NCBI GenBank assembly: GCA_028285305.1
Contig: JANQPV010000055.1
Location: forward strand, 1-64,000
Source of the DNA: Alphaproteobacteria bacterium
GTDB taxonomy: Bacteria; Pseudomonadota; Alphaproteobacteria; SMXP01
Reading direction: 5' to 3'
DNA: 64,000 nt
The notes beneath the pieces were generated by a model that saw nothing but the letters and a program-made list of their open reading frames with translations, was not told where the DNA came from and ran no database searches. Made by a program: the position numbers and the translations under genes. This document shows, piece after piece, positions 9,580 to 30,180 of this stretch (within the stretch, counting starts at the first letter, position 1; each line of letters starts with the position of its first letter).

Positions 9580-12500
9580 TCATCCTCCCGTCAATCGACG
9601 TTGTCGGCCGCGTTCGGTCGTATCTTGATCAGCATCAAAATCGGTGGGGGTGGCAGATCCTGGCGTCTCCATCGACGAAGAGACTTTTGACATGGAGACG
9701 TGGACATCCGTTTGAGGGAATGGAATATGAATGCCGTTGTCCCCGAGCACTTTATTTATCTGAGTATTGAGCTCATGTGTTGTCGGAAGGCGCTTCACTG
9801 GCTTCGACACAAACGAGCGGATTTCAAACAGCAACGCGCTGTCTCCATGGGCCATGAAAAACACTGTGGGTGGAGGCGTGTCGAGCACATCGGGATGGCG
9901 TGAGACAACATCCAGGATCAAGGCTCGGACGGTTTCGATATCCGATCCGTAGGCGACGCCCACCCGAAGCAAAAGCCGCGTAACGTCGTCTTCTAACGTC
10001 CAGTTGGTGACGTTCTCGGTAACGATCTTCTTGTTGGGCAGGATGACTTGTCGGTTGTCAAAGTCCGTGATCGTTGTCGATCGGATTCTGATACTTCTGA
10101 CGGTCCCACGGAGTTCGCCGATTGTGACCACATCGCCGATACGGATGGGACGCTCAAACAGAATGACGAGTCCGGAGACGAAGTTCGCGACAATTTCCTG
10201 CAGGCCGAAACCAAGGCCCACACCAAGGGCCGCGATGATCCATTGCAGCTCGGACCAGTTGGCGCCCAGAAGAGAGAAACTAACGACTATGGCCACTGCG
10301 ATCATCACGTAACGTGTAATGGAGACAACGGCGTAACGTGAACCCGGGTCCAGATCGAAGGGCTCGAATACGCCAATTTCGAGCAATCCGCCCACATTCC
10401 TTACGGCAAACACACCGATGGCCAGGAAGAATAAGGCTGTCAGCAAATCGAGCAGCGTCACCGCTTCTCGAAGCTCGGTTCCATCCGTGGTCACCATTCG
10501 TGTCCAAAGAGAAACGTCACCGGCGATGCCCAGGGCCGGTAACCAAGGATCCCAAAGAACCCAGAGCAGCAACGAAACGGTTACGACCGCCACCATTCTA
10601 AGCAAAGAGCGAACTTGTGTGCTGACGACCTCAGCATCGACGATAGCGTCGTCTGCAGCAATTCCCATCGTCTCGCCGCTCGCATCTGCCTCGGCCCGGG
10701 ATGCCCGTGCCGCTTCCATCCGAGCTCTTTTTTCCTTCGCTCTTACAAGGGCGAGTCGGCGCTCTCCCACCATGAATATGCGCGTAGCCAGCCCATAAAG
10801 CACCGACCCCCCCAGAACGAGCCCACCTGACTGAAGCACTTTGAGCTGCAATTCGGTTGCTGTGTCGAAGTAGCCGAAAAATGGCATTACACCAACTAAG
10901 AGAGGCTCCAAGACAGCGATTGGCACGAGTAGCTTGAGAAGCAACGACGTGGTCGGACCGGTTTTAAGTTCCGATACAATTCCGCCCCTGGGTCTCAGGA
11001 ATTGGAACGTGAGGGCTGAAAGGCCGATTGATCCGATCACGAACGCGGCTACGCCCACACCATATTGGATACCGGGTGGACTTGAAAAGACTGTCAGCCC
11101 AAACAGGGATATGGCTCCGGCTTGTAACCTAGTGAACCAGCGAAGGTTGGCCTGCAAACGGATGCGCGCCTTTTGCGTCCAATTGAAGTGCTTATCGAAC
11201 AGTCCATTAGGCCGGCACATTTCAAGGAAAACGAAAAGCACGAGCAGGACCGGCCCAAGAAGGATGAATGTCTCCGCCAAGCCTTGGGTAAAGTCTTGAG
11301 TTGCGGCGCCCGTATTGGAAAGAAGCCACCCCGCCATGCTGACGGCAAGCGGTAGCGGCAGCGCCAGCAAAACTGTCACACCCATGGCCGATGGCGTTGT
11401 CCAGTAACTGTCCCGGCCCACATTCCCAACTTTCTTCGCCAAGTGGTCTAGGCAATCCACGAGCCGATGCCGCAGTCCCATGAGCGCCAGTAGGACCAGA
11501 GCGAACAGGCTCGATGCCCCGGCATTCGCTATGGCTCCGGCAAACAGGGATCTGATCGCATCGGCCCATGCGGATGGTGAAAGGATCCATGCTACCCCGC
11601 GGGGAAACTGTTCGAGCCAGGACAAATTCATGCGCTCGCTTGTGCGAAGCCAAAGCAGACGGCGATCCACGAGTTTGGAGAGGTCTTCCGATTTCTGATT
11701 GAGTTCAGCAAGCGCCAATTCGTGCTCAGAAATCAACTCCGATTCCAGCCGCGCACCATCGACAAGCAATTCAAGCTGCGACCGGCGCAGATTTGACAGA
11801 CGGTTCGCTTCGCCACCAATTGGAGCGTTCACCTGCAACTCACTGACTGCCCAGTGGGCATCTTCCAACGCGCGAAGCTCCTCCAACCAAACGATCATTC
11901 GAAGCTGGATGTCACCCCTCTTGCGTTCGGTTTGAAAGAGAACGGAGTTGATCTCAGTGCGATCTGGCAATGTCGTACGAACTGTCTTCAAGAGTATCGC
12001 GGTTTCGTCCGACAGCCTGCCAGCTCTGAGAACAAGCCGAACAGTTTCAGCCGACTGATCAAGCGCGTTGGCTTCGCGTTGGGAGTCTGCAATTTGACGT
12101 TCCAACTCTGTACGCCGGAGGATGCCGTCCCTCACCTCTTCTGCGAGTCGAAGATTGCCTTCCGCAAACTCCAGCCGCGTCGGATCGATTGACCCAAGCT
12201 CAGCTAGATCGGCTTCGGCTTTGCGGATCGCCATTTCGGCGCGACCCAGTGCTGACTCGCTTAGACGACTGCGAAGCAGCTCAATAGTTTGCCCATTGCG
12301 CGCGATCTCCGACTCCAAGAGCGAGAGCCTCGCCGCCACAAGAGACTGGCGAGCCGGCAACGTTTCGAGTTCGATCTGCAGGTCGGTGACGGCCGACTGT
12401 CTTTCCATCAAGGCGGCTTGAGCAAACAGCCACCTCGCCTCTTCCAAGGCTTCGTCAGGTCTCGCTTCATTGATTTCGGCAGCATCTGAAAGCTGAGTCA

Positions 12501-13050
12501 CCTCATTGCGCGCAGCAATGACTTCATCAGCGATGACAGCTTCGCGGCCACTCAAGCCGAGACTCTGAGCACGGAGCGCTGAGAGTTGCTCAGAGAGGGA
12601 TTGGCGCTCCGCGGTCAGCACCGACAGGCCCGATTCAAGTTCAGCCACGGACGCATCATCGCCCCATCCGCCTGTTTCGGTTTCCAGCTCGGAATGCCGA
12701 GATTCGATCTCAGCCAGCAGCGAATTCAAGTTCCGCGCCGTCGCTTGAAAGTCTGCAATCTGTTCAGTACGCCGTGACCGGACCACCAAGGCATCTTTCG
12801 CCCGATTGAGAAGATCGATCGCGCTCCTTTGCGAGTCTTCGTCAATCGTGATGTCACTCACGACAGCTTCAATCATCTCCTCAATCATAGCCGGTGTGAT
12901 TGGATCAAGCGCGGTCTGTGCAAGACCGGTCGAAAACGATAAAACACCAACGAGTGCAACGAAGGTCGCCAAAACTCGGACCGAACCGACGATCCAGTGT
13001 AGCTGCTGTCCCATCATGCTTTGTCTGCTTTTTGTCGTGTGAGTCTTCAC
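9580..13050 (-). CDS. Large MscK/KefA-like mechanosensitive channel
   Basis: A 1156-residue MscS-superfamily channel. Residues 1-45 form a signal peptide (LATFVALVGVLSFSTGLA). Residues 50 to about 560 are an Ala/Glu/Leu-rich periplasmic coiled-coil region. Multiple membrane helices follow from about residue 590, and the pore/MscS domain is near residues 930-1110, with GLGFGLQEIVANFVSGL and the beta-domain segments RPIRIGDVVTIG and RSTTITDFDNRQVILPN. The family opens under membrane tension to release osmolytes during hypo-osmotic shock. The start is GTG 13050; the next in-frame ATG pair at 13017 has no ribosome site. It is transcribed alone or after the hydrolase genes upstream on the same strand. 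Confidence 0.92.
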   Translation of the reverse strand: MKTHTTKSRQSMMGQQLHWIVGSVRVLATFVALVGVLSFSTGLAQTALDPITPAMIEEMIEAVVSDITIDEDSQRSAIDLLNRAKDALVVRSRRTEQIADFQATARNLNSLLAEIESRHSELETETGGWGDDASVAELESGLSVLTAERQSLSEQLSALRAQSLGLSGREAVIADEVIAARNEVTQLSDAAEINEARPDEALEEARWLFAQAALMERQSAVTDLQIELETLPARQSLVAARLSLLESEIARNGQTIELLRSRLSESALGRAEMAIRKAEADLAELGSIDPTRLEFAEGNLRLAEEVRDGILRRTELERQIADSQREANALDQSAETVRLVLRAGRLSDETAILLKTVRTTLPDRTEINSVLFQTERKRGDIQLRMIVWLEELRALEDAHWAVSELQVNAPIGGEANRLSNLRRSQLELLVDGARLESELISEHELALAELNQKSEDLSKLVDRRLLWLRTSERMNLSWLEQFPRGVAWILSPSAWADAIRSLFAGAIANAGASSLFALVLLALMGLRHRLVDCLDHLAKKVGNVGRDSYWTTPSAMGVTVLLALPLPLAVSMAGWLLSNTGAATQDFTQGLAETFILLGPVLLVLFVFLEMCRPNGLFDKHFNWTQKARIRLQANLRWFTRLQAGAISLFGLTVFSSPPGIQYGVGVAAFVIGSIGLSALTFQFLRPRGGIVSELKTGPTTSLLLKLLVPIAVLEPLLVGVMPFFGYFDTATELQLKVLQSGGLVLGGSVLYGLATRIFMVGERRLALVRAKEKRARMEAARASRAEADASGETMGIAADDAIVDAEVVSTQVRSLLRMVAVVTVSLLLWVLWDPWLPALGIAGDVSLWTRMVTTDGTELREAVTLLDLLTALFFLAIGVFAVRNVGGLLEIGVFEPFDLDPGSRYAVVSITRYVMIAVAIVVSFSLLGANWSELQWIIAALGVGLGFGLQEIVANFVSGLVILFERPIRIGDVVTIGELRGTVRSIRIRSTTITDFDNRQVILPNKKIVTENVTNWTLEDDVTRLLLRVGVAYGSDIETVRALILDVVSRHPDVLDTPPPTVFFMAHGDSALLFEIRSFVSKPVKRLPTTHELNTQINKVLGDNGIHIPFPQTDVHVSMSKVSSSMETPGSATPTDFDADQDTTERGRQRRLTGG

Positions 13051-13128
13051 TAGAAAGCCTTCGGAATACGGATCATTTTTGATCTCGGTATCTCCGGTCT
13101 ATTGCCCATTTAAAAAGATGACGCCCGC

Positions 13129-14454
13129 TTACGTTTTAGACGCCTGCTGAAGCCCGCGCCCGAATTCGGGCAGCGCGGCATTGATGACTTTTGGCGTGAG
13201 TTCGTGCGCCGTACGGCCAAACACGTCATCAAGCCAATCAAACATGATGCGATTGGCATTTGTTCTGTTGCCAAATTGGCAATGATCGTCAGAGCCGTCC
13301 TTTTCGGCCGTAAATATGTAGATGTCCTTTCTGTCGGAAGAAACTTTGTCGAAAAACTCACGTGTTTGTTCAACCAACAGATCACCTTCGCGCTCTCCGG
13401 CGAGGGCAAGAACCGGGCACGTGATGCGATGAAGCATGTCTCTCAAGCACCACTTCTCGGGATCTTCCGCAAGCATAGCATCCAGCATCTCGCGTGCAGA
13501 ATACTTCTCTGCATGCCCGCTGTTCCACATGGCCAAATACATCATGGACTTTGCAAATGGGGATCTCCTCATCCTCAATTCCGTCAGCCATGCCCAAAAC
13601 CACAATGGAATTCTGGTCTGTTGAAGCGTCACCTTCTGGGCCGCCGTCGCATCGATCAACGGTGAGCTGGGAATAAGCGCCTTGATCCGTTTCTCGAAAA
13701 TCGCGGCTCGAGAAACGACGTATCCTCCGAAACTGTACCCGGCCAAAGCGATGCGGTCATCGACGCCGTCGAGGCGCTCTAAAAGATCAAACGCAGCCGC
13801 AAACGGTACTTCCATGTCATGGCGCTTGACGCAATCCGGATACAAATGAACCGTGCCGCGGTGCCCGGGGAATTCGAAGGTGAAGAAATTGTACCCGCGA
13901 TCGATCGCGGCCTTTGCGCTCCAATACCAAACCTCTTCTCCGCTGGAATCATTTCCGCCAACGGAGAACAGCGTTGGACGAAACTTTCCAGTATCATCCG
14001 GGGGCCAGAAATATGCTGGGAGCTTTTTGCCTTCGAAGGGCACTTCCAAAATCTGAATAGCCGGGCTAAACAGAGGACAGGCCTTATGAAAACAGTCCCG
14101 GCTCTTTTCCCACAGGGCATGAAATTTTGGGTGAGTGGGGAGAGCACCATATTCCGCAGTCCGATAGTAGTTTGACGCCCTGAGATAGGCGTCGCGGGCA
14201 CTGATCTCCCGGCCCTCTTTCAATGACTGTTCTGCATCCGCCTCCAGACGGGCTCCCAGCGTCTCCCATGCATCAATCCAAGTCTCGACGTTGCGTTCGT
14301 CGATTTTTGTGGCGGCACTGAGACAATCGCCGATGTCGGCCCCATCTGAATTGGCATATTGCAAAGTTCGCTTGAAGAGCCAATCCATCTCATGGTCTTT
14401 GAACGTACCAAGACTATTCCAGGACCGCGCGAGCCCCATTTTCCATCCGGACAT
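13129..14454 (-). CDS. Alpha/beta hydrolase (FrsA/DUF1100-like)
   Basis: This 441-residue protein has an N-terminal helical cap and a C-terminal alpha/beta-hydrolase core. The nucleophile elbow GYSFGG provides Ser, FEFPGHRGT is the oxyanion-side strand, and DDHCQ near the end holds the likely catalytic His. The layout matches large serine hydrolases of the FrsA or pseudooxynicotine-hydrolase type, which cleave esters or carbon-carbon bonds in cytoplasmic substrates. Its ATG overlaps the stop of the next gene upstream (TGATG), so the two are translationally coupled. The neighbour is a clear paralogue with the same architecture. Substrate unknown. Confidence 0.88.
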   Translation of the reverse strand: MSGWKMGLARSWNSLGTFKDHEMDWLFKRTLQYANSDGADIGDCLSAATKIDERNVETWIDAWETLGARLEADAEQSLKEGREISARDAYLRASNYYRTAEYGALPTHPKFHALWEKSRDCFHKACPLFSPAIQILEVPFEGKKLPAYFWPPDDTGKFRPTLFSVGGNDSSGEEVWYWSAKAAIDRGYNFFTFEFPGHRGTVHLYPDCVKRHDMEVPFAAAFDLLERLDGVDDRIALAGYSFGGYVVSRAAIFEKRIKALIPSSPLIDATAAQKVTLQQTRIPLWFWAWLTELRMRRSPFAKSMMYLAMWNSGHAEKYSAREMLDAMLAEDPEKWCLRDMLHRITCPVLALAGEREGDLLVEQTREFFDKVSSDRKDIYIFTAEKDGSDDHCQFGNRTNANRIMFDWLDDVFGRTAHELTPKVINAALPEFGRGLQQASKT

Positions 14455-15707
14455 CAGTTCTCTCCATGCATCGAGCCCGCCAAATGATCTTCAAACCAAT
14501 CAAAGACGATTTGCCGAGCAAGTGGAAAATTGTTCAGTTGACAGTGCGCCTCAGCGCCTTCAGCGAGTGTCGTAACTCTCTCGACCTTGGAATCGACCTG
14601 AATGCGCGCGTGGAATTCGCGAGCCTGTTTTAATCCTTCCCCTCCAAGTTCGTTTTCCCCAACCAGAGTTAAGAAGGGCACGCGGACCGCCTCCGGAGAG
14701 GTCGTGAACGTTCCCCAAACCTCGTCGAGCAGTTTCCCGACGGACTGCTTAAGGCTCGAGCGGTCATCGATTCCGTATTGCCAACACATGCGATAGGCCC
14801 ATCCGTGGGCGTTCCGATTCATCTTGTAGACGTTCCGGACGTCGGCCAATACACTTGCTGCATTCAGCATCGGCGCATTCGCGGCAATGGCTCTTGGCCT
14901 CTCGTCAAATCCGGCGAGGCGTGCAGCTTTGTATCCACCCATACTGATACCGTACACAAAGAGCTGATCGGGATGGACATCCGGACGGCTCAGAAGATAG
15001 TCGATCTGAGCCTTCAGTGCGGCGTCGCCGGGATCCGAGAGACGTAAGGATGGCCGGTCGATTCGGGTTGCTGTGTCACCAGGCATATCGACGGCAGCCA
15101 CATTGAAGCCTCGTTCCGCGCCTTCCGCGCCGCACCACCAAAGCATGTCCTCGGAAATGGACTCTGCACCATTCAGCCAAAGAACGGTAGGACGTTGTAC
15201 ATCATTTTCTTCCCCCGGACTTATGAAGTAACCAGACATGTCCTGGTCCTCGAAAGGAACGACAATCGGAACAATGTTCCTGGGGCCGTGCTCAACATAA
15301 AGCGCATAGCACTGTTTAAGAGCAGAATAGGTTTCCCGCATCGCTGAGCCTGACAGATCCGGATCTGTAGCGAGGTGAGAAGTACGATAGTACGTGTAGG
15401 CCCTCAGACTCGTCAGTGCGCCACTACGCTCATGACCAGCTGCAAGAAGATCCTCTGCTTGCTGCCGAACACGGTTTCCTTCAGTCATCCATTCGTCTGT
15501 CCAACTCTCGTTCGAGCGCTCATCAATTCGCGCTGCGACATTGTAGATCTCGCCGACAGCGGCGCCTTCATACTGAATCTGGTTTAACGGAAACCATGCG
15601 AACCAAGCATCAAGAAACGGGTGACCGAAGTAAAAACGCTGCGTAAATCCCCGCAATCGGGGCGCCATCGAAGCCAACGTTCTGAATATTCGTGAGCCGA
15701 GTTTCAT
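14454..15707 (-). CDS. Alpha/beta hydrolase, paralogue of the downstream gene
   Basis: A 417-residue alpha/beta hydrolase of the same two-part design as its neighbour: helical cap, then the core with nucleophile elbow GISMGG and likely catalytic His in EAHCQ, followed by the shared ending IVFDWFEDH. The two proteins are only moderately similar, so the duplication is old or the pair was acquired together. ATG 15707 is the first plausible start. The gene leads a two-gene unit. About 230 bases upstream lies a perfect FNR-type box at 15941, though the intervening decayed gene makes a regulatory link uncertain. Confidence 0.88.
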   Translation of the reverse strand: MKLGSRIFRTLASMAPRLRGFTQRFYFGHPFLDAWFAWFPLNQIQYEGAAVGEIYNVAARIDERSNESWTDEWMTEGNRVRQQAEDLLAAGHERSGALTSLRAYTYYRTSHLATDPDLSGSAMRETYSALKQCYALYVEHGPRNIVPIVVPFEDQDMSGYFISPGEENDVQRPTVLWLNGAESISEDMLWWCGAEGAERGFNVAAVDMPGDTATRIDRPSLRLSDPGDAALKAQIDYLLSRPDVHPDQLFVYGISMGGYKAARLAGFDERPRAIAANAPMLNAASVLADVRNVYKMNRNAHGWAYRMCWQYGIDDRSSLKQSVGKLLDEVWGTFTTSPEAVRVPFLTLVGENELGGEGLKQAREFHARIQVDSKVERVTTLAEGAEAHCQLNNFPLARQIVFDWFEDHLAGSMHGEN

Positions 15708-16033: not shown

Positions 16034-16650
16034 CTAATACGCGTTGGCAAAATCACGAAATTGCTTGGGCGTTGTCGAAAAGAGAGGCTTTCGGAGTTCC
16101 CGCTGCAGTTCAGCGGGGATTTCACCATCGGCAACAAGGGCGGTGCCTGCCTCAGTCAGCTTCTGATAGCAGTCTTGCAGTTGGTCTTCAAACCCCGCAA
16201 TTGACAGAAGCTCAGCCTACGGACGCAGTATCTCACCCAGATATTCCATCTTCTCGGCGCGCGCGTAGTGTCTGAACGTCCGGACGAGGGAGTCATAATG
16301 TTCGAACTCGGGAAACCCGCCACCCGCGGCCAAGAAGATCTTCTTCGGACCATGCCAACTTATAGGGTGTGTCGATAGGTGGGAATAATCCGGATCTGAT
16401 TCTAACCATGGTTCTACTTTCGGCAAAGTTCGATCAATGAATGTCTTCATGAGACCAGACATGCTGAAATGTTAGAGAGGTGTGCCGAACACGACGAGAT
16501 CGGCTGCGCAAAACGTACTTTCCAAGATGCTATTCATCGCATCGTCGTGAATGCACTTACCTGGCGTTCGAAGCCAACAGGAGAAGCAACCTATGCAGGA
16601 TTTGAGATTCATCCGCCGCAGGTGGAGCACCTCAGTATCCGTACCCACCT
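16034..16650 (-). pseudogene. Flavodoxin-fold FMN/NAD(P)H oxidoreductase, decayed
   Basis: Reading one continuous minus-strand frame gives a recognisable flavoprotein of the NADPH-dependent FMN reductase/iron-sulfur flavoprotein type: SCIGCFSCWLRTPGKC, then VFGTP, then MSGLMKTFIDRTLPK, and a C-terminal stretch ending FRDFANAY. The frame is broken by in-frame stops at 16472-16474 (TAA where VFGTPL-HFSMSG expects a Tyr) and at 16217-16219 (TAG). The stop at 16034 may be a third lesion, because coding-like sequence continues in frame to about 15915. The N-terminal 40 or so residues with the FMN-phosphate loop are missing, replaced by the end of an IS110-type transposase. Three separate lesions make this a true pseudogene rather than a sequencing slip. 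Confidence 0.8.
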
Positions 16651-17107
16651 GAGAATGGCAGAACGCCACAAAGACGTTCTGGAAAAAGAAATTCAGACAC
16701 TCATCCAAAATGACACGGAGTTTAAGCGTAAGTTCGCCATTCTCACCAGCATTCCCTTTATCGGTAAGATCACGGTCACCATTCTGATTTCACAATTGAT
16801 GGGGTTGGGACAAGTGAACTGCAAGCAAATTGCAGCCTTAGCTGGAGTGGCACCCATGAGTTGGGACAGCGGAGCCAAGCATGGCAAGCGCATGATCCGT
16901 GGGGGGCGTAAATGTGTACGCAATGCGCTGCATATGTGCGCGGTCGGTACAGCCCGAAGAGCCGGGACGTTCGGGGGTTACTATCAACGCCTCATCAAAC
17001 AGGGAAAGCATCCCAAGGTCGCACTCACCGCCATCACGCGCAAACTCATCATTCTCGCCAACACTCTCATCGCAGAGGATCGATGCTGGCAACCTACGCG
17101 TCCGTAA
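16640..17107 (+). mobile_element. IS110-family transposase fragment (C-terminal domain only)
   Basis: From about 16650 the plus strand encodes the C-terminal Transposase_20 domain of an IS110-type DEDD transposase: KFAILTSIPFIGKITV, ISQLMGLG, IAALAGVAPMSWDSG, GKRMIRGGRKCVRNAL and LTAITRKLIILANTL. The N-terminal DEDD catalytic domain is absent. The open frame extends left to 16469, but those codons are antisense to the flavoprotein pseudogene and are not transposase. The element is therefore dead. Its left junction lies inside the flavoprotein gene near 16640-16660. No terminal repeats are evident, as expected for this family. The 280 bases that follow to the amidohydrolase gene contain no gene, only an FNR-type box. 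Confidence 0.82.
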
Positions 17108-17310: not shown

Positions 17311-17324
17311 TTGACGTGGATCAA
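17311..17324. promoter_or_regulatory. FNR/FixK-type box before the amidohydrolase/QEGLA/ATP-grasp operon
   Basis: TTGACGTGGATCAA, one mismatch from TTGAT-N4-ATCAA. Its centre is 68 bases before the start codon at 17386, close to the spacing seen for the HPF, BON and Hsp20 boxes. That fits a class II activator site about 41 bases upstream of transcription start. Confidence 0.65.
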
Positions 17325-17385
17325 TCGACGGAGTGGAAAAAGGAGCGAAAGTGAGGGAAAGAAATGAGTTGACGATGACATTCGA

Positions 17386-18258
17386 ATGAGCGAACCGCAC
17401 AATCAGAGCAGTGGGGCGCATCAGGTGGATGACGCACAATCCGACCGAACGCTTGAACCTGCCATCTTGTGGCATGTCCATGAGGGGGAGGGCCCGATAC
17501 TGGGCCTTGCCGTTCATGCAGGCCATGACATGCGGCCGGAGCTTATTCCCTATCTTCGCATAGATGAAGTAACGCGCATCCGGGAAGAAGATCCGTATAG
17601 CGATTACTGGACGTTGGCCTGTCCCAATAGGTTCCTTACCCGGCGTTCAAGATTCGAAGCGGATTTGAACCGAACGCTGGATCATGCAATCTGCGTCCAG
17701 CCGGAGGACTGTTGGAATCTGAATGTGTGGCATGGGACGCTTCCAAGGGAATTACGCGAACGTTCCCTGCGAGAACACCAGTTCTTTTATCGGAGCCTGC
17801 TTGCGTTCCTAAACTCGCTGGAAAGGAAGTATGGCGCCTTCGTTGTATTTGATTTTCATACTTACAACCACAGGCGCGGCGGCCCAAACTCCCTTCCCGC
17901 ACAGCCCGAAACAAATCCGGAAATCAATATTGGGACGGGATCTATGGACCGCGCACATTGGACACCCTTGATTGATCGACTTATGGGTGAACTCTCCGAG
18001 TTCGATTTCCAAGGACGAACTCTGGACGTGAGGGAGAATGTGAACTTCAGAGGTCGGCAAGTAGCGGCTTTCGTGCACGAACACTTTCCGCGCAATGGGT
18101 GTGCCCTCGCAATCGAGGTCAAAAAGTTCTTCATGGATGAATGGACTGGCGAGATCGACGCAAATGCCATCCGATCTTTGCTAGACGCCTTTCGTTCTAC
18201 AATACCGGCCGTTTTGGAAGAGCTCTCGCATCTGAAAGAAACGCATGACCCACGATGA
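17386..18258 (+). CDS. N-formylglutamate amidohydrolase family protein
   Basis: A 290-residue member of PF05013, whose founding enzyme hydrolyses N-formyl-L-glutamate in histidine degradation. Visible family features are LAVHAGHD (metal-binding His region), RFEADLNR, VFDFHTYNHRRGG (second metal/catalytic region) and IEVKKFFMDEW near the C-terminus. There are no hut genes nearby. Instead its stop overlaps the next gene, which encodes a QEGLA metallopeptidase, and an ATP-grasp ligase follows. In this three-gene context the substrate is probably an amide of a ligase product rather than formylglutamate. The start ATG 17386 has only a weak ribosome site. Confidence 0.88.
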   Translation: MSEPHNQSSGAHQVDDAQSDRTLEPAILWHVHEGEGPILGLAVHAGHDMRPELIPYLRIDEVTRIREEDPYSDYWTLACPNRFLTRRSRFEADLNRTLDHAICVQPEDCWNLNVWHGTLPRELRERSLREHQFFYRSLLAFLNSLERKYGAFVVFDFHTYNHRRGGPNSLPAQPETNPEINIGTGSMDRAHWTPLIDRLMGELSEFDFQGRTLDVRENVNFRGRQVAAFVHEHFPRNGCALAIEVKKFFMDEWTGEIDANAIRSLLDAFRSTIPAVLEELSHLKETHDPR

Positions 18259-20119
18259 CTTGCTTTTACCGTCGGTCATAGACCGGATAGAAAACAATCT
18301 CGTGGTTGATGAGCATTTTCCTGAGGGCGGACGGCTCCACATCGATCATCAACAGCCCTTCTTGTGCATCTATCGTAAGCCCCCCGCTCGTCAGGATGCA
18401 GGAACCGGGGAGCTCGTGACGGCTCAGGCGTCGTTTGTATTGTCAGCGGGGGAGTCTCCGACATACGATCCAATACGGTATATTGACCAGATTTCGGCTT
18501 CGCTCGTCAAAGCGTTTGGAGCCTTTTTGCTGTTTGAACTCTGGACGACAGAAGAGCGACAAGAACCGGCTCAGGAGTCGCGGCGCGTGCAACGGCTCTC
18601 ATTTACACTCTACGCACCGATGGATTGTGTGCCGGAGGCTACACTTGAAGCGCTCGAACGCTCGCTGTTGGAGGTAGATTGGCCGGGCGGCACACCAGAA
18701 ATAATAATTCACTACAAGGAACAAATAGCGCCCAAAGACTTGGAACCTCTTCTGACAAGCGCGACGGAGGCGGTGACCTGGTTGGGCATGGAAATTGATC
18801 CAAACTATCAAATCCCAGGGGGAGCTGACTTCTATCCGGATCTTTTGCGACGTATCCGTAGGAACATGACCAATGCGATACGAAAAATGGCCTACGAATT
18901 CGCCCACAGTCATACGAAATTCCGCCCCCGCCATTTCCACGAACTGGGTCGGCAGAACATTGAACCTATCGCCTTTGCAGTTGACCGTCGTCTGGCGGAG
19001 ATTGACGATAAGTTTGATCTCTTGCTTCATATGACGCCGGTTAATGTTGAGCAGGAGTGGATCGCGTTCCAAGAATGTGACTTCAAGAGAACACCCGAGT
19101 TTCATTATCGTCCATTAGGGATAAACCCAGTAGAGCTTAAAAAAGTACTCTTCAGTATACCCTATGAACTCGTCGAAGACCCCGCCATGCACCAATTGTT
19201 TGCCGACAAGCGGGATGAGATCGACAAGCAGCTCACACTCATGTTGGCCCGTGGTAACAAACCGACGTTTTACGATAGCTTGAGTTTGTATGGTGCGCCC
19301 AGAGAAGACCTCTTGGCGCAAGCAAAGGAACTGGCCCAACGCACCAAAGAGTCAGATCCGAGTGTTCTTGAGGGCCGTTCCATTGGCGCAGACGAGCTTG
19401 CATCGCTCGCTGGACGAGAACTGGGTCACTATCGCAAGAGACTTCCGGACATGCCGTCTACGGTCGAAGTGCGGGACGATGTGACCGGTCTAATAGTTGT
19501 CGACGGCAACTTGCTCATCGGTCGATCCGTTGCCGTTGACCAAGCCCGCAGTGAAGCAGCAGTACAACATGAGGTAGGAACGCACATTCTCACGTTTCTA
19601 AACGGTCTGCAGCAACCGTTCCAACTGCTCCATTCGGGGTCGGCTGGGTATGAGGATCTTCAGGAGGGGCTCGCCGTTTTTGCCGAGTTCATGGTCGGCG
19701 GGCTGACGGCTGGCCGCATCCACCAATTGGCGTGCCGAGTAATCGCGATCGATTGCGCGCGCCGGGGAGCCGACTTTATAGAGACGTTTGACGAATTGCG
19801 GGGAACGTACAACCTGGCGGATCGCACGGCTTTCATAATGACAATGCGCTTGTTCCGAGGGGGTGGCTTTGCAAAGGATGTTGTTTATCTGCGCGGTTTC
19901 ATAGAATTGCTGGATCGAATCCGGGATGGCTTGAATATTCAATCTTTGTATCTCGGCAAAATCGGATGGAAGGACTTGCCGCTGATTGAGGAATTGAATT
20001 GGAGGAACATTACGCGTTCGCCCGCACTCTGGCCGCGGTTTCTACAAACCGACGCCGCCCGCCGTCGGCTAAATCAAATAAGGACGGGGAACGGTATTGA
20101 CCAACTAATCGAAGGGTGA
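18245..20119 (+). CDS. QEGLA-motif metallopeptidase-like protein (DUF1704/MATCAP fold)
   Basis: This 624-residue protein carries the DUF1704 (PF08014) signature, often labelled flavohemoglobin-expression-modulating QEGLA protein. The zinc site is intact: His442-Glu443 and His447 in HEVGTH (an HExxxH motif), with Glu474 in QEGLAVFAE as the likely third ligand. Eukaryotic members (MATCAP) are tubulin detyrosinases, so a carboxypeptidase role removing a C-terminal residue is reasonable; the bacterial substrate is unknown. The N-terminal 200 residues are less conserved to my eye. It overlaps the upstream gene by 14 bases and its stop overlaps the ATP-grasp start (TGATG), indicating tight coupling. 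Cytoplasmic; no signal peptide. Confidence 0.88.
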   Translation: MTHDDLLLPSVIDRIENNLVVDEHFPEGGRLHIDHQQPFLCIYRKPPARQDAGTGELVTAQASFVLSAGESPTYDPIRYIDQISASLVKAFGAFLLFELWTTEERQEPAQESRRVQRLSFTLYAPMDCVPEATLEALERSLLEVDWPGGTPEIIIHYKEQIAPKDLEPLLTSATEAVTWLGMEIDPNYQIPGGADFYPDLLRRIRRNMTNAIRKMAYEFAHSHTKFRPRHFHELGRQNIEPIAFAVDRRLAEIDDKFDLLLHMTPVNVEQEWIAFQECDFKRTPEFHYRPLGINPVELKKVLFSIPYELVEDPAMHQLFADKRDEIDKQLTLMLARGNKPTFYDSLSLYGAPREDLLAQAKELAQRTKESDPSVLEGRSIGADELASLAGRELGHYRKRLPDMPSTVEVRDDVTGLIVVDGNLLIGRSVAVDQARSEAAVQHEVGTHILTFLNGLQQPFQLLHSGSAGYEDLQEGLAVFAEFMVGGLTAGRIHQLACRVIAIDCARRGADFIETFDELRGTYNLADRTAFIMTMRLFRGGGFAKDVVYLRGFIELLDRIRDGLNIQSLYLGKIGWKDLPLIEELNWRNITRSPALWPRFLQTDAARRRLNQIRTGNGIDQLIEG

Positions 20120-21171
20120 TGATCGTGAAAATTGGGTTCGTCGTAAACGAAGTAAGCAGCGAACTGGCTGCATATACCACAACCCATCTGGCTCTCGCAG
20201 CACTCAAACGTGGGCACGACGTTTGCTACATCGAGATCGAAGACTTCAGCTACGGAACAGATCAGAAAGTCCACGCACTTGCGCGTGAGGTCAACTTGCA
20301 GAAGAACGAGTCGGACCGCGAACTCCTCCTTACACTGCAATCTCACGATCTGCATGAGGAACGAATTTGTGTCGATGATCTTGACATCTTGTTCCTGCGC
20401 AATGACCCGGCCCGAGACTTTGTTACAAGGCCATGGGCGCGGCTGGCCGGGATCAATTTCGGTCGTCTCGCATCGAGAAGAGGCGTGATTGTGTTGAATG
20501 ACCCCGACGGTCTCAATCATGCGATCAATAAAATTTATACGGAGTACTTGCCAAACAGCGTTACGCCATTGTCCATCATCACAAGGGATCGGAGCGAAAT
20601 CAAAGCCTTTGTTAAGGAACAAAACGGGCCCTGCATCCTCAAACCACTGATCGGTTCAGGGGGGCACAATGTCTTTCTGTTAAAGCCCGACGAGGCTCTC
20701 AACGTCAATCAAATGATCGATTCTGTTTTGACGGATGGATATGCGATTACACAAGAATATCTGCCCGCTGCCGATAAGGGGGATCTTCGCGTATTCATTC
20801 TGAACGGCGACATTCTCCATGTCGACGACAAACCCGCGATCATCAATCGCCGAAGGCCGCAGGATGACGTACGCGCCAATCTAACCGTGGGGGGCACTGC
20901 TCATCGCAGTGATCTGTCGGACAGCATTCAGACGGTCGTGGACGAGATTAGGCCCTTTATCTTGGAAGACGGTTTGTTCTTCGTAGGTGCTGATATCATT
21001 GGCGATAGGCTGATTGAGCTGAACGTCTTCAGTCCCGGAGGTCTTGTAGGCGCGAGCCGTCTCTGGGACGTGGATTTTCACAGCGAAGTCGTGGCCGCGC
21101 TGGAGCGGAAAGTGGCTCTTAAAAGCAAGTCGCCTCTTTCCAATCGGGAACTGGCAGCACTGGACGGCTAG
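20119..21171 (+). CDS. ATP-grasp ligase (glutathione synthase/RimK-like)
   Basis: A 350-residue ATP-grasp enzyme resembling glutathione synthetase and RimK. After an N-terminal pre-ATP-grasp domain (VKIGFVVNEVS), it shows FVKEQNGPCILKPLIGSGGHNVF (ATP-binding Lys and glycine loop), ITQEYLPAADKGDLRVFIL, and the magnesium-binding end GADIIGDRLIELNVFSPGG. The fold forms amide bonds from a carboxylate and an amine through an acyl-phosphate. No gamma-glutamylcysteine synthetase is adjacent, so ordinary glutathione synthesis is not implied. ATG 20119 overlaps the upstream stop. It pairs a ligase with a likely peptidase (upstream) and an amidase: a possible add-and-remove cycle. Confidence 0.88.
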   Translation: MIVKIGFVVNEVSSELAAYTTTHLALAALKRGHDVCYIEIEDFSYGTDQKVHALAREVNLQKNESDRELLLTLQSHDLHEERICVDDLDILFLRNDPARDFVTRPWARLAGINFGRLASRRGVIVLNDPDGLNHAINKIYTEYLPNSVTPLSIITRDRSEIKAFVKEQNGPCILKPLIGSGGHNVFLLKPDEALNVNQMIDSVLTDGYAITQEYLPAADKGDLRVFILNGDILHVDDKPAIINRRRPQDDVRANLTVGGTAHRSDLSDSIQTVVDEIRPFILEDGLFFVGADIIGDRLIELNVFSPGGLVGASRLWDVDFHSEVVAALERKVALKSKSPLSNRELAALDG

Positions 21172-23354: not shown

Positions 23355-23906
23355 TCAATGTGTCGGCCGTACCATGCTTGCCTGGGGACCTTCGTCCCCG
23401 TCGGATTCAGAATACGTCACCGGATCACCTATACGGAGCTTGTCGAAGCCATCGTTCAGTACACTGTTCCGATGAAAATAAATCTCCCTGCCATCATGTG
23501 ACCGCAGAAATCCGTAGTTCTTCTCGGCGAGCAAGGTTTCAACGATCCCCGTCGCTGGTTCAGCGTGGCGTTTTACGTCACCTCTGATCTTACGCGCCTG
23601 ATCCTGAAGTTGGCGCCGGGCCGCTGCAAAAGCGTCTCGGATGGCGACGTATGTGTCTTCGTGAGCGTGATCCTTTGCCGGATTCCGATTGGCCAAGACT
23701 TCTCTTCCGTCCGGCAAGACGAGGTGCACATTTACGGCGTAGAGATCTCCATGGTGGTGTCTCTTTTGAGGTTTGCTCACCACCACACGGCATGATGTGA
23801 TGTGGCCGAAAAACTTTTCGAGCTTGTCAATCTCCTTTTCGACTCTCGCGCGAATGGCATCGGATGGTCCCATCCCGTGAAATGCTATGTGCGGTTCTAC
23901 TTGCAT
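23355..23906 (-). CDS. Ribosome hibernation factor (HPF/RaiA) fused to a cold-shock domain
   Basis: A 183-residue two-domain protein. Residues 1 to about 105 are an HPF/RaiA domain (IRARVEKEIDKLEKFF, CRVVVSKPQKRHHHGDLY, VNVHLVLPDGREV), which binds the 30S decoding region and silences ribosomes. Residues about 113-180 form a cold-shock/S1-like fold with RNP1-like KNYGFLRS and RNP2-like IYFHRNSV. The usual long-HPF dimerisation domain is absent, replaced by the cold-shock domain, which should bind single-stranded RNA. A perfect FNR-type box lies 72 bases upstream of the ATG, so expression is probably induced when oxygen falls. Confidence 0.92.
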   Translation of the reverse strand: MQVEPHIAFHGMGPSDAIRARVEKEIDKLEKFFGHITSCRVVVSKPQKRHHHGDLYAVNVHLVLPDGREVLANRNPAKDHAHEDTYVAIRDAFAAARRQLQDQARKIRGDVKRHAEPATGIVETLLAEKNYGFLRSHDGREIYFHRNSVLNDGFDKLRIGDPVTYSESDGDEGPQASMVRPTH

Positions 23907-24941: not shown

Positions 24942-26078
24942 ATGAGCGGAAACCGGCAGATTGGTGAACAATATCGGCTCATGAAGCGTTCAGGACTTGA
25001 TGACCTGATAAAGGTCTTGCGCGTGCTTGATTATAGAGTAATCGGTCCGACTGAAAGCAACGGCGTGATCGAATTTGCCGAATTAGGCGACGCGAGCGAA
25101 CTTCCTTGGGGGCTGCGAGACGAGCAGAAGCCCGGTTCCTACTCAGTGTCAAAAGGCGGTGACCGCGCATTCGAATTTTCAAATGGACCTACCTCGCTGA
25201 AGCGATACTTTCACCCTACTGAACGTCACCTGTGGACGGTGGACGCGAGCGGCGGCCAACTGCAGTTTGAAGAAGCGCGGGTTCAAGTTCCAAAGTATGC
25301 GTTCTTGGGAATACGGCCGTGTGATCTTGCCTCTTTGGACATCTTAGATCAGGTATTCTTGAACGGCGTAGAGACCAATCGATACTATGAGTCGTGCCGG
25401 CAAAACTCTCTGTACGTTGCCGTAAACTGTTCGTCAGCAGGCGATCTGTGTTTCTGTGCGTCCATGGAAACTGGTCCGACCGCTCGCTCAGGTTTCGATA
25501 TTTCACTGACTGAGCTTAGATCAAGCGACGCCTATCGCGTTCTGATAGAGATAGAGACCGACCGTGGGCGGAGTATCGTAAATCAAATTGATACATCCGA
25601 GGCGCATGAAAATGATCTATCGCTCGCACGAGAACAGTCGGACGGGGTCGCCCGGTCGATGGGCCGCACCCTTCATACCTGGGGCCTTCGCGAGCGACTT
25701 CAGGAAAACGCAGACGACCCCGCATGGGCTGATGTAGCAGAGCGATGCTTGACGTGCGGCAACTGCACCATGGTCTGCCCGACCTGCTTTTGCACGACTG
25801 TAGAAGATAGAGCGAGTTCGCACGACCAAAAGTATGAACGGTGGAACACATGGGACAGTTGCTTCAGTCTTGATTTCACCTTCGTTTCGGGAGGCGCGCT
25901 GCGCCAATCTTCCAAGTCAAGATATCGGCAATGGTTAACTCACAAGCTCAGCACCTGGGTCGATCAGTTTGGCGTATCGGGATGCGTGGGGTGTGGACGC
26001 TGTATCGCTTGGTGTCCCGTAGGAATTGACATAACAGAGGAAGCGGCCCGGATCGGTGAGCCGCAGGCACGCGCATGA
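24942..26078 (+). CDS. hydB: Hydrogenase iron-sulfur subunit beta (HydB-like)
   Basis: A 378-residue electron-transfer subunit of the sulfhydrogenase beta/anaerobic sulfite reductase A type. The N-terminal part has [17 protein letters not shown] and [11 protein letters not shown]; the C-terminal part has two 4Fe-4S motifs, Cys269/272/275/279 and Cys348/351/354/358, each ending in CP. In group 3b [NiFe]-hydrogenases this subunit connects the FAD/NAD(P) subunit with the hydrogenase module in the cytoplasm. The start has TTGGAG upstream. It is the first of eleven genes with stop-start overlaps or tiny gaps, ending with hypE. Confidence 0.88.
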
Positions 26079-26542
26079 GGACTCTCACGGACTTAATCGT
26101 TGAACAAGGGCTTCTGAAAGAACTTGATCCGTCAAAGATAGAGACAATTTCCGGATGCGGAAAAAATGCTGTCTTTGAAGCCGGCGCGTATATCCAGAAG
26201 GAGGGCGATCCGGCGGATCACTTCTATCTTGTGCGTGCAGGAAAGGCGTCCTTAGAGACATTTATTCCCGGTCGAGGCAATGTCATCTTCAAAACACTGT
26301 CCGAGGGCGACCTTGTGGGTGTATCATGGCTGGTCCCACCGTACCGGTCTAGTTTTGACGCGCGGGCGCTTGAGGAGTGCCGCGCGATCGAGTTTGATGC
26401 AAACTGCTTGCGGCAGCATTGCGAGGCAGACCACGACCTGGGGTATGCGCTCTTAATGAAATTTGTACCCGTCATTTTGGATCGAATGAGGTCGGCCAGA
26501 CTGCAGATTCTTGACGTTTACGGACCCGATGGGGACGGATGA
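26075..26542 (+). CDS. Stand-alone cyclic-nucleotide-binding domain protein
   Basis: A 155-residue protein consisting of one CRP-type cNMP-binding domain: [29 protein letters not shown], then [37 protein letters not shown]. The phosphate-binding cassette keeps the Arg ([11 protein letters not shown]), although the usual Glu/Gly pattern before it is altered. There is no helix-turn-helix after the domain, so it is not a transcription factor. It starts on the stop of hydB (ATGA) and its own stop overlaps hydG. Its place between two electron-transfer subunits suggests a regulatory or structural subunit of the hydrogenase. Ligand uncertain. Confidence 0.85.
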
Positions 26543-27378
26543 TGAAAGACGACCGCGGCTTAATTTCCGCCATGGTACCGGCCGCGGCGCGAGTCCTTCG
26601 CCGACAAGTCGAGTACGATGAGGTGGTCACTTTAGAAGTAGAACGACCTGCTACGTTGACAAAAGAGTTTCTGCCTGGACAGTTTAACATGCTCTACGTT
26701 TTTGGCGTGGGCGAAATAGCGGTAAGCCACAGCGGCCATCCGTTCCATCAAGATCGTATTGTCCATACGATACGGGCGGTGGGTAAGGTGTCTCGAGCGC
26801 TGATCCTACTAAAACCAGGCGACTGGCTTGGAATTAGGGGGCCGTACGGAACACCTTGGCCTATCGATCATGCAAAGGGACAAAATCTGATCGTTGTCGC
26901 GGGCGGGCTCGGTCTCGCGCCATTGCGTCCGGTACTGTATGAGGTTTCGTCAGCCAAAGATGCTTATCGCTCTATGCGGTTGATTTATGGAACACGCGAT
27001 CCGTCGTCCATTTTGTACCAAAGCCAATTTGAGGGTGGACCTTGGGCAGAGTTTGGCCAAGTAACCGTCGACAGCGCGAACCTAGACTGGCAAGGAAACG
27101 TCGGAGTAGTAACCGACCTGATCAGTGCCGATACGCTCGACACAGAAAACGCGGTTGCTCTCATTTGTGGTCCCGAAGTGATGATGCGGTTCTCTGCTAA
27201 CGCACTCATAGATTTGGGCATGCGCGAAGATCGCATATACGTGTCTTTGGAGAGAAACATGAAATGTGCGGTTAAACAGTGCGGCAGGTGTCAATTCGGG
27301 CCATATTTTGTGTGCCGGGACGGACCTGTGGCGTCCTTTGGACAAGTGGACAAACTGCTCAAAATTGCGGAGCTCTAG
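26539..27378 (+). CDS. hydG: Hydrogenase FAD/NAD(P)-binding subunit gamma (HydG-like)
   Basis: A 279-residue diaphorase of the ferredoxin-NADP reductase fold. It has the FAD-binding barrel ([13 protein letters not shown], then a divergent RxYS-like region), the NAD(P) domain with [15 protein letters not shown] and LICGPEVMM, and a C-terminal [2Fe-2S] motif C-x4-C-x2-C-x7-C in [17 protein letters not shown]. It would exchange electrons between NAD(P)H and the hydrogenase. The start overlaps the stop of the cNMP gene. Length and motif order match group 3b gamma subunits. NADP is the usual partner of the group, but cofactor choice cannot be read from the sequence. Confidence 0.9.
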
Positions 27379-27386
27379 TCGGCGCG

Positions 27387-28166
27387 ATGGTCATGCCAAA
27401 AAAAATCGCAGTCTGGAAATTTGCGTCCTGTGATGGATGCCAACTGACTTTGATCGATTGCCTAGAAGAATTGATGGCTCTTGGGGATCGAATCCAAATT
27501 GCCGAGTTTCGGGAAGTGAGTCGTGCGAGCGTGGAAGGTCCCTTTGATCTATCGATCGTTGAAGGGTCAGTATCGGTCCCGGAGGATGTCCACCGTATAC
27601 GACGCGTGAGGGAGAACTCACAATACCTTCTTACGATCGGCGCATGCGCGACTTCGGGAGGCATCCAGGCTCTGAGGAACATTCAAGCAGCCGATGAATT
27701 TGTTTCGGCGGTTTATGCGCATCCAGATTATATCGACACGCTCGCAACTTCAGATCCAATCGCTAGCCACGTCGCTGTCGATTTTGAACTCAGAGGCTGT
27801 CCCATCAACCGCTCTCAATTGCTCGAGGTGATAAACGCCTATCTGTTTGACCGAAAGCCCCAGATTGCGACCTATAGTGTATGCATGGAGTGCAAGCGAC
27901 GCGGGACACCCTGCATTATGGTGTCGCGGCAGACCCCGTGTTTGGGCCCGGTTACGCAGGCAGGCTGCGGCGCCATCTGTCCCGCCTATGGCCGTGGATG
28001 TTATGGGTGTTTTGGGCCGATGGAAACGCCAAACATGCAAGCTCTGACCGCCCAGTTGGCCAGTCTCGGCGAAACCGAAGAGCAGATACGGCGTTCCCTT
28101 CGAACGTTTAACACAAACGCGCCCCCTTTTCATGAGGCAGCAGAATATGTCGACACGGACGATTAA
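27387..28166 (+). CDS. hydD: [NiFe]-hydrogenase small subunit (HydD-like)
   Basis: A 259-residue iron-sulfur subunit without Tat signal, so cytoplasmic. Cys15 and Cys18 in SCDGC begin the proximal cluster set, joined by GACATSGG and the cysteine-rich end with [24 protein letters not shown] and GCYGCFGP, enough for the three 4Fe-4S clusters of group 3 small subunits. An open frame extends upstream into hydG, but ATG 27387 (or 27393) starts the conserved domain. The gene overlaps the large-subunit gene by 20 bases, as is common for obligate partners. Confidence 0.93.
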
Positions 28167-29436
28167 AGTAGACTATCTGGCCAGAGTGGAGGGTGAAGGG
28201 TCTTTGTTGGTCGAAGTCAACAACAACAGAGTCGAAGATGTCCGTCTGAGCATTTTTGAACCTCCGCGCTATTTCGAGGCTCTGCTGAGGGGGCGCCACT
28301 TTTCCGAGGCGCCAGATATTACGGCAAGAATCTGCGGCATTTGTCCGGTTGCATACCAAATGAGCGCTGTCCATGCGATGGAACGCGCTGCCGAGGTTGA
28401 GGTTCCTAAGCCCGTCCGCGATCTGCGCCGGCTTCTCTATTGTGGGGAGTGGATCGCAAGCCATGCGCTTCATGTGTTCATGCTCCACGCGCCCGACTTT
28501 CTCGGGTACGATGATGCGGTCTCCATGGCGCGTGACCATTCGGACTTAGTGAGGAATGGATTGCGGCTAAAGAAGATTGGCAATCAGATTATGTCGGTTG
28601 TGGGGGGGCGTGACATTCATCCGATCAACGTCCGTGTGGGCGGCTTTTACGCAATGCCGGCTCTCAACGAATTGGAAGAGCTCACGGAAGAGTTGAAGTG
28701 GGCCTGCGATTGGGCTCATGAGTCAGTCCGTTGGGCAGCATCACTGACTTTTCCTGCTTTGGAAGTCCCATATACATTTGTGAGTTTAAGACACGATACG
28801 GAATATCCCATGAATTTCGGGCGTATTGCGTCCAATACGGGGCTTGATATTTCGGTCGATGCTTATGAAGCAGACTTTCGCGAGATGCACAAAGAGCATT
28901 CCACCGCATTGTATTCCGTTCTCAAAGACGCTGATCCTTATCTCACTGGGCCACTGGCACGCTTCAATTTGAATAGGGATTTACTCACGCCACGGGCCGC
29001 AGAAGCGGCGAAAGAAGTGGGATTGGGGGATCGGTGCTTAAATCCTTTCAAGAGCATCATCCTCCGGTGTTTAGAGATGCTGCTTGCCTGCGAAGAGGCC
29101 CTGCGATTGATCAAGGACTACACACCTGCCGAGCCGGCGTGGGTGGACGTTGATCCCAAAGACAGCGTCGCGATGGCCGCGACCGAAGCGCCCAGAGGGC
29201 TTCTTTACCATCGATACAATATCGACAAAGAGGGCTTAATTTCGGAGGCAAAAATCGTTCCGCCAACGTCTCAAAATCAAACAATCATGGAAGATGATCT
29301 CAGGCGGGTTGCGGAGAAGACACTGCATCTGACCGAAGACGAAATGCAGTGGCGTTGTGAACAGGCTATTCGCAACTACGATCCCTGCATCTCATGTGCA
29401 GCTCATTTCCTTGATTTGAAGGTGAGCAGAACATGA
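28147..29436 (+). CDS. hydA: [NiFe]-hydrogenase large subunit, group 3b type (HydA-like)
   Basis: This 429-residue catalytic subunit has both nickel-binding motifs: RICGICP with Cys63 and Cys66, and DPCISC with Cys414 and Cys417 followed by AAH. The nine residues after His420 are the C-terminal tail that the endopeptidase encoded next should remove after metal insertion. The N-terminal [16 protein letters not shown] is typical. ATG 28147 is preferred over 28132 because GAGG lies before it. With HydB, HydG and HydD it forms a cytoplasmic bidirectional NAD(P)-linked hydrogenase; group 3b enzymes can evolve or consume H2 and often serve redox balancing under oxygen limitation. Confidence 0.94.
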
Positions 29437-29921
29437 ACAGACCTGACGTCTTGGTGATTGGTTTGGGAAACCCCTCGCGTGGCGACGACGGCGTAGGAAG
29501 AAAGGCGGCGCTCGAACTAAGAAGGACCCTGAACTCTGGTACGACCGTGCTGGATATGTTGGGCGAGGCGAGTGAATTGATTGACGCATGGAAGAATGCC
29601 GGGAAAGTCGTTCTGATCGACGCGTGCCAGGGATTGGGGAAACCGGGAGACGTCAGGCGGGTTGATTTGTTGTCTGAAGACATCAATGGGAATGGTCGTG
29701 AGATCTCGAGCCATGGCCTTGGCCTTCAAGAGGCAGTCAACATGGCTTTGGCACTTGGTGATGTTCCGCGGGAGCTGATCTTGGTTGGTATCGAAGCAGC
29801 CACGTTCGAACATGGAGATGGACTGTCAAACAAAGTGAAATCGGCGCTCCCCAAGGTCTTTGAGATGGTCGCGAAAGAGCTAGCGGAGTCAAAGAGCGTT
29901 CGGGAGTCCGAAAGTGCATGA
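29433..29921 (+). CDS. Hydrogenase maturation endopeptidase (HyaD/HycI family)
   Basis: A 162-residue nickel-dependent protease that clips the C-terminal tail of the large subunit once nickel is in place. The start shows the family signature [17 protein letters not shown] with the metal-binding Asp; a second acidic ligand is in VVLIDACQG, and a conserved His follows in [11 protein letters not shown]. The gene overlaps hydA by four bases (ATGA) and hypA by eight, so the protease is made together with its substrate. The C-terminal 25 residues are low complexity ([10 protein letters not shown]). Confidence 0.92.
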
Positions 29922-30177
29922 AGCTGGTTTGATGAGGGACTTGATGGGCCAGGTATTGGACTTGGCTCGAAAGGAGAATGCCAAGAGCGTCGCGTCGGTA
30001 AGTCTGTGGCTTGGTGCACTAAGTCATATGTCCACAGATCACTTCCAAGATCACTATGCAGAAGTCTCGGCGGGAACATTAGCAGAAGGAGCAAAACTGA
30101 ATATCGAAGTGTCTAGTGATGTATCAGACCCAAACGCACAATCGATAATCTTGCGTTCCATCGAAGTGAGCGATTAA
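29914..30177 (+). CDS. hypA: HypA-like nickel metallochaperone lacking its zinc finger
   Basis: Only 87 residues, against about 113-118 for HypA. The N-terminus keeps the nickel-binding Met-His-Glu (MHEAGLM) and the domain through GTLAEGAKLNIEV. The CxxC...CxxC zinc module that should follow is cleanly missing: about eight residues lead straight to the normal HypA ending LRSIEV. There are no cysteines at all in the protein. The start is GTG 29914, which overlaps the protease gene and places His at position 2. Nickel delivery may still work, but zinc-dependent partner recognition cannot. No hypB is in the cluster. Confidence 0.85.
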   Translation: MHEAGLMRDLMGQVLDLARKENAKSVASVSLWLGALSHMSTDHFQDHYAEVSAGTLAEGAKLNIEVSSDVSDPNAQSIILRSIEVSD

Positions 30178-30180
30178 ACG

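Follow-up and report, generated by a model that had tools for sequence, protein, structure and literature searches.

ATP-grasp ligases and peptidases are found together in several described systems, such as the tubulin tyrosination cycle (tubulin tyrosine ligase, TTL, with a MATCAP/TMCP peptidase), the RimK-RimB pair (an S6 poly-glutamate ligase and a retropepsin) and RloABC of Pseudomonas. Here we describe a related arrangement in a stretch of 64,000 nucleotides (nt) from an alphaproteobacterial genome, called the window below, which makes up 1.2% of that genome. Three overlapping open reading frames (ORFs) encode an N-formylglutamate amidohydrolase-family protein (FG), a long MATCAP/DUF1704 protein (MAT) and a GshB/RimK-type ATP-grasp ligase (GS). 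This trio is a conserved unit in bacteria, and its ligase is independent of glutathione synthesis. We tentatively read the operon as a cycle of synthesis and breakdown of a small glutamyl-type compound, a short peptide or amide, that could be used in osmotic or ionic adjustment.

None of the closest systems matches the trio in all its parts. RimK-RimB and RloABC are alike in that a ligase of the GshB/RimK superfamily is encoded together with a peptidase, but their peptidase is a retropepsin where MAT is a MATCAP zincin, they have no amidohydrolase, and GS is nearer to GshB than to RimK. The tubulin cycle has a MATCAP-family peptidase with the same catalytic motifs. However, TTL belongs to another ATP-grasp family that was not detected here, the bacterial MAT has an extra, degenerate amidohydrolase domain, and there is no tubulin target. 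Prokaryotic GshB shares its fold, its two domains and its ATP/Mg residues with GS, but GS scores below all curated cut-offs, occurs in genomes without glutathione genes and has an altered SPT motif. The short QEGLA or 'flavohemoglobin expression-modulating' proteins (TIGR02421) contain the same zincin domain, but are only ∼440–450 amino acids (aa) long and lack the N-terminal domain of MAT. MAT of the window scores 295 bits against TIGR02421, under the cut-off of 339, and no trio genes were seen beside short QEGLA genes in the ∼1 kb flanks of loci L002 and L005–L010. In the N-acetylglutaminylglutamine amide (NAGGN) osmolyte pathway, an ATP-grasp peptide ligase and a peptidase are also encoded together, in this case around a glutamine dipeptide osmolyte. 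The trio operon contains neither the asparagine-synthetase-like nor the M42 peptidase genes on which that pathway relies. In the literature mentioning DUF1704, QEGLA or COG3930 we found no work on the trio, although the neighbourhood may have been mentioned before.

A conserved order of three genes

Genome contigs were scanned for long-form MATCAP proteins. This yielded 80 loci that, judging by their record titles, come from about 14 phyla: Pseudomonadota, Planctomycetota, Poribacteria, Calditrichota, Chloroflexota, Bacteroidota, Ignavibacteriota, Gemmatimonadota, Acidobacteriota, Verrucomicrobiota, Campylobacterota, Myxococcota, Actinomycetota and Sumerlaeota. Most of these loci come from metagenome bins, and single phylum assignments may be wrong. 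Three rhizobial plasmids (including pSymB of Sinorhizobium meliloti), one more genome and the window bring the set to 85 loci, and in 69 of them the genes follow each other as FG-MAT-GS on the same strand. The remaining 16 comprise five that are cut by a contig end, six without an adjacent FG and five that are otherwise arranged, some of these with all three genes close by. As the scan selected long-form proteins, it links the long form to the trio and not all MATCAP relatives. The first-pass annotation of the window had recognised three overlapping genes of these families and treated them as belonging together; ORFs and Pfam matches agree (Table 1), and the genes are not mostly apart in other genomes. 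The commonest gene spacing in trio loci is a 4-nt overlap, and overlaps of a few bases are typical of coupled translation. Pairwise identities of FG, MAT and GS correlate across 53 loci (0.67–0.80), as expected of a unit, but common descent alone would also give a correlation. In one verrucomicrobial locus (L040, 1821–13076) the order is FG-MAT-GS-MAT-GS-MAT-GS. Because they are repeated together, three times behind one FG, peptidase and ligase behave as a pair, and the proposal that they oppose each other is plausible.

Table 1. Positions of the trio and of its features within the window
Feature	Position	Strand	Remarks
FNR/FixK-type dyad TTGACgtggATCAA	17311..17324		61 nt before the first start codon of the operon
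FG, N-formylglutamate amidohydrolase-family protein	17386..18258	+	290 aa; PF05013, E 4e-14
MAT, long MATCAP/DUF1704 protein	18245..20119	+	624 aa; PF08014, E 6e-78; 14-nt overlap with FG
MAT N-terminal domain, residues 1 to ∼245	18245..18979	+	degenerate amidohydrolase-like; hhalign and Foldseek
HEVGTH (HExxxH zincin motif), MAT residues 442–447	19568..19585	+	intact
QEGLA motif, MAT residues 473–477	19661..19675	+	intact; presumed third ligand E474
GS, GshB/RimK-type ATP-grasp ligase	20116..21171	+	351 aa; GTG start; 4-nt overlap with MAT; GSH-S_ATP PF02955, E 9e-41

Within the class of the window the trio is patchy. Any MATCAP-family gene is found in only two of 60 relatives, and eight of 385 genomes of the class match MAT, most of the matches being the short form. 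Directly 5' of the trio, at 16469–17107, lies the remnant of an IS110-family transposase, of which only the C-terminal part (212 aa) is left; it stands between the trio and two FrsA-like hydrolases. In the GS tree a long branch leads to the window sequence, which falls within a Pseudomonadota group made up mostly of gammaproteobacterial records. The sister sequence is found in identical form in a genome of the window's class (G119) and in a bin titled Alphaproteobacteria (L020); the two ligase genes (L004:3357-4400, the L004 genome being G119, and L020:5022-6065) are probably from the same organism. The patchy distribution, the IS110 remnant and the tree position together make it likely that the trio was acquired horizontally here. 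A search for phage carriage of the trio gave one weak partial match only, and an Rfam search of the window gave no match. No conserved small ORF that could encode a peptide precursor was found within 1.2 kb of the trio. A precursor of the type known from ribosomally synthesised and post-translationally modified peptides was rejected, as the small-ORF clusters resemble either lineage-specific DNA or frames antisense to the enzyme genes.

Ligase, peptidase and amidohydrolase

The structural model of GS (pLDDT 93) superposes on Escherichia coli GshB (1gsa) with TM-scores of 0.81/0.90, and more poorly on RimK (0.67/0.79). In Pfam, GSH-S_ATP is accompanied by GSH-S_N and RimK. According to the alignment, GS keeps the ATP/Mg residues K138, K175, D222, R224, D292, E300 and N302, and in 86 homologues 12 of the 13 ATP/Mg and substrate-side positions checked are invariant, while S305 is a threonine in 10 of them. 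The motif SPT, which in E. coli GshB is found near the acceptor side, is SPG in GS, and this glycine and the next are both invariant. GS scores under every curated glutathione synthetase cut-off (TIGR01380, 173.5 vs. 299; PRK05246, 195.9 vs. 272), under that of the PRK12458 subfamily (377.7 vs. 408) and far under that of the S6 ligase equivalog PRK10446 (21.2 vs. 331).

The genome of the window has a canonical gshB elsewhere (G000:C18:27310), as well as a GCS2-type gshA. For a broader comparison 30 trio genomes were used, chosen mainly for long contigs and phylum spread after their gene maps had been seen, and some of them related to each other. A GshB over the curated cut-off is absent from 26 of these, and GshA-type hits are missing from 18–20, where the range reflects the inclusion or omission of two very weak GCS2 matches. 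Public records label GS homologues glutathione synthase or synthetase, but since GS is under the cut-offs and most trio genomes lack GshB and GshA, this name is unsupported. The first-pass annotation had considered that GS might be an ordinary glutathione synthetase; with a separate gshB in this genome and the 26 genomes without GshB this can be rejected, in favour of what it had proposed. Its remark that no glutathione or histidine-degradation genes are nearby also holds for the neighbouring genes that are annotated.

Some loci contain more than one ligase. In Phycisphaerae there are three in tandem. A second ligase subtype (support 100/100) turns up repeatedly in Planctomycetota, Verrucomicrobiota and Gemmatimonadota; within the sample it is confined to loci that have at least two ligases. 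Tandem ligases and the second subtype therefore suggest successive additions. In the Phycisphaerae loci L018, L033 and L084 the three ligases are of three subtypes and lie downstream of the peptidase, at ∼11880–15130.

MAT scores 262.7 bits against PF08014 (cut-off 27), placing it within the MATCAP/TMCP family. Among solved structures, human KIAA0895L/MATCAP (7z5g, E 1.3e-11) is nearest to it in sequence, and its AlphaFold model has a pLDDT of 91. In 78 homologues H442, E443, H447, Q473 and E474 are invariant, and T446 is found in 75. This bears out the earlier description of a peptidase with an intact HExxxH motif plus a glutamate. In human MATCAP, the glutamates E281 and E316 are required for activity (PMC10499314). 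With their catalytic residues invariant, both ligase and peptidase appear to be kept active.

The N-terminal region of MAT has no Pfam family, but it is homologous to FG (hhalign 90%, E 1.6e-6, residues 29–213) and matches the N-formylglutamate amidohydrolase 2q7s in Foldseek with a probability of 1.00 and a TM-score of 0.44 by target length. The homologous stretch starts after the segments of FG that contain H44–H47 and REEDP, and H158 of FG is not kept. Because these metal-site segments and H158 are missing, the domain, a degenerate copy of FG, should be catalytically dead. Possibly it has become a docking site for the live FG. The origin of this domain, the tandem and repeated genes and the MscS neighbourhood described below were not part of the first-pass annotation.

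FG itself scores 53.6 bits against PF05013 (cut-off 28.9) and is thus a member of the family. None of the NCBIfam models matched it, so it is not HutG as curated, and a sequence search found no related solved structure. Across 32 homologues H44, H47, E67-E68-D69-P70, D156, H158, R216-E217-N218 and E244 are invariant, and some of these residues probably bind the metal.

Neighbouring genes and regulation

Several kinds of genes recur near the trio: MscS channels, SLC12-like permeases, CorA, MgtE, CNNM, diadenylate cyclase and sigma-54 regulators. No peptide uptake system or amino-acid catabolic gene is among these recurrent neighbours. In 13 of the 30 genomes MscS is found no more than 12 kb from the ligase (0.68 expected), and in six within 5 kb (0.28 expected), an excess that spans several phyla, but a formal P value makes the excess look too strong because the genomes are not a random set and are partly related. 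Four genomes, from two lineages, have MgtE at a distance of 5 kb or less. It is worth mentioning that in L018, L033 and L084 the ligases are followed by diadenylate cyclase, MgtE, CorA or MscS. In the window, 9580–13050 encodes a very long mechanosensitive channel (1156 aa), and no protein of the 30 genomes searched has a better score for the MscS beta-domain.

Another question is the regulation of the operon. The genome contains 70 perfect FNR-type dyads, 11 of them inside the window, whereas the reversed pattern used as a control occurs six times. The dyad at 17311 is therefore more than chance, and the operon is probably also under an FNR/FixK regulator here. The first-pass annotation was right about the box in front of the operon, but the use at low oxygen that it derived from it does not extend to the trio in general: no such box was found upstream of FG in 71 other trio loci. 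Low-oxygen control is thus a local feature, and conserved FNR control of the trio is rejected. An EcfG general-stress promoter in rhizobia was also considered, but the case is weak: S. meliloti has a single site, 340 bp upstream, and the other two have none (background 0.019 per 400 bp).

The dyads form an island that covers 9625–61902 of the window and goes on to ∼75 kb of contig C4. Other genes of the window code for hydrogenase-type proteins, HypF, BON/DUF2267 proteins and a hibernation factor with a fused cold-shock domain, and the dyad-rich stretch looks like a low-oxygen or dormancy island, or a regulon cluster. The ribosome hibernation factor (S30AE) with its cold-shock domain lies at 23355–23906 and has an FNR-type dyad upstream. 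The region 24942–32526 encodes a cyclic-nucleotide-binding-like protein flanked by sulfhydrogenase-like beta and gamma subunits, and also the large subunit of a NiFe hydrogenase and HypF.

A possible cycle for a glutamyl compound and its alternatives

Glutamyl substrates are common to the characterised members of these families: GshB takes gamma-Glu-Cys and N-formylglutamate amidohydrolases take N-formyl-Glu, while RimK adds Glu (PMC12239564) and TMCP/MATCAP acts on Glu-rich tails, including deglutamylation (PMC10499314). As the ligase is in addition built like a small-molecule enzyme, we favour the tentative reading of a cycle for a small glutamyl compound. GS would spend ATP on joining an amino acid or amine to a carboxylate of a glutamyl acceptor other than gamma-Glu-Cys, and MAT, acting as a carboxypeptidase, would remove this C-terminal residue again. 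FG would cleave an N-acyl or terminal amide bond, perhaps while docked to the dead domain of MAT, and the compound could in this way be taken apart from both ends by peptidase and amidohydrolase. Because the recurrent neighbours are MscS channels and ion transporters, the product in most carriers would probably serve the adjustment to a change in osmolarity or ion content. Two published observations touch on osmotic stress. In Photobacterium damselae, a QEGLA gene is up 27.5-fold at 1% vs. 3% NaCl (PMC10308900), and in Rlo, another ATP-grasp/peptidase operon, secreted peptidases are needed for hypoosmotic survival (PMC12239564).

A number of points weigh against this reading. We only infer the substrate and product of the cycle, and for the peptidase even the nearest solved structures are distant relatives. 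The characterised substrates of MATCAP are proteins, so a protein could also be the target here. The Photobacterium gene is reported by name only and is probably the short QEGLA form, not a trio member. The loci with MscS are partly from related lineages in a genome sample that is not random, the MscS-type gene of the window is 4.3 kb from the trio in another transcription unit, and the osmotic link is not shown for S. meliloti.

The main rival is a reversible modification of protein C-termini, in which a residue attached by the ligase is taken off by the MATCAP-type peptidase, either as in the tyrosination-like cycle of the first-pass annotation or as a tail cycle resembling RimK/RimB. MATCAP relatives do strip C-terminal residues of tubulin (PMC10499314), RimK and RimB are a known ligase/peptidase pair (PMC12239564), and the GS model resembles RimK to the degree given above. 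However, over its whole length and with its GSH-S N-domain GS is nearer to the small-molecule enzyme GshB, the operon has no conserved protein partner or small ORF, and the amidase would have no obvious role. Of the tyrosination-like cycle, the MATCAP-family peptidase stands and the TTL-type ligase falls: TTL comes from a separate ATP-grasp family, the trio proteins show no TTL domain, and Pfam gives only GSH-S_ATP, RimK and GSH-S_N for the ligase. A TTL-type cycle is therefore rejected, nothing points to a C-terminal tyrosine or to a protein target, and we regard C-terminal modification as a whole as unlikely.

It could also be that the operon is an accessory or replacement pathway for glutathione or another gamma-glutamyl thiol, in which the ligase makes the thiol and peptidase and amidase degrade it. 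The GshB fold, the complete set of ATP/Mg residues and the names in public records would fit this, but the low score against GshB, the canonical gshB elsewhere in the genome, the shortage of GshB and GshA in trio genomes and the invariant change from SPT to SPG make it distinctly improbable. Least probable of all, and in our view very unlikely, is a scavenging operon, where amidase and peptidase would degrade external N-acyl or amide-linked glutamyl compounds and the ligase would store or export the product. Two of the three enzymes are hydrolases, and the trio is patchy within the class, but a ligase that consumes ATP fits a catabolic role poorly, and the recurrent neighbours are channels, Mg/cation transporters and sigma-54 regulators instead of genes for peptide uptake or amino-acid catabolism.

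MATCAP-family peptidases were characterised in people only in 2022–23, and we found no published work on the role of their bacterial relatives. Fixed operon partners are a strong handle on this role, all the more in a tractable carrier such as S. meliloti with its pSymB plasmid. The glutathione synthase label, in genomes that seemingly do not make glutathione, can mislead metabolic reconstructions. It is rather doubtful that a widespread and so far undescribed glutamyl-compound cycle, built from a ligase, a live amidohydrolase and a MATCAP-type carboxypeptidase with a dead amidohydrolase domain, aids osmotic or ionic adjustment in bacteria of roughly fourteen phyla. If the osmotic link is true, the trio would bring a new class of compound or modification to bacterial osmo-adaptation, and the tubulin detyrosinase of eukaryotes and a bacterial peptidase of osmo-adaptation would have a common origin.

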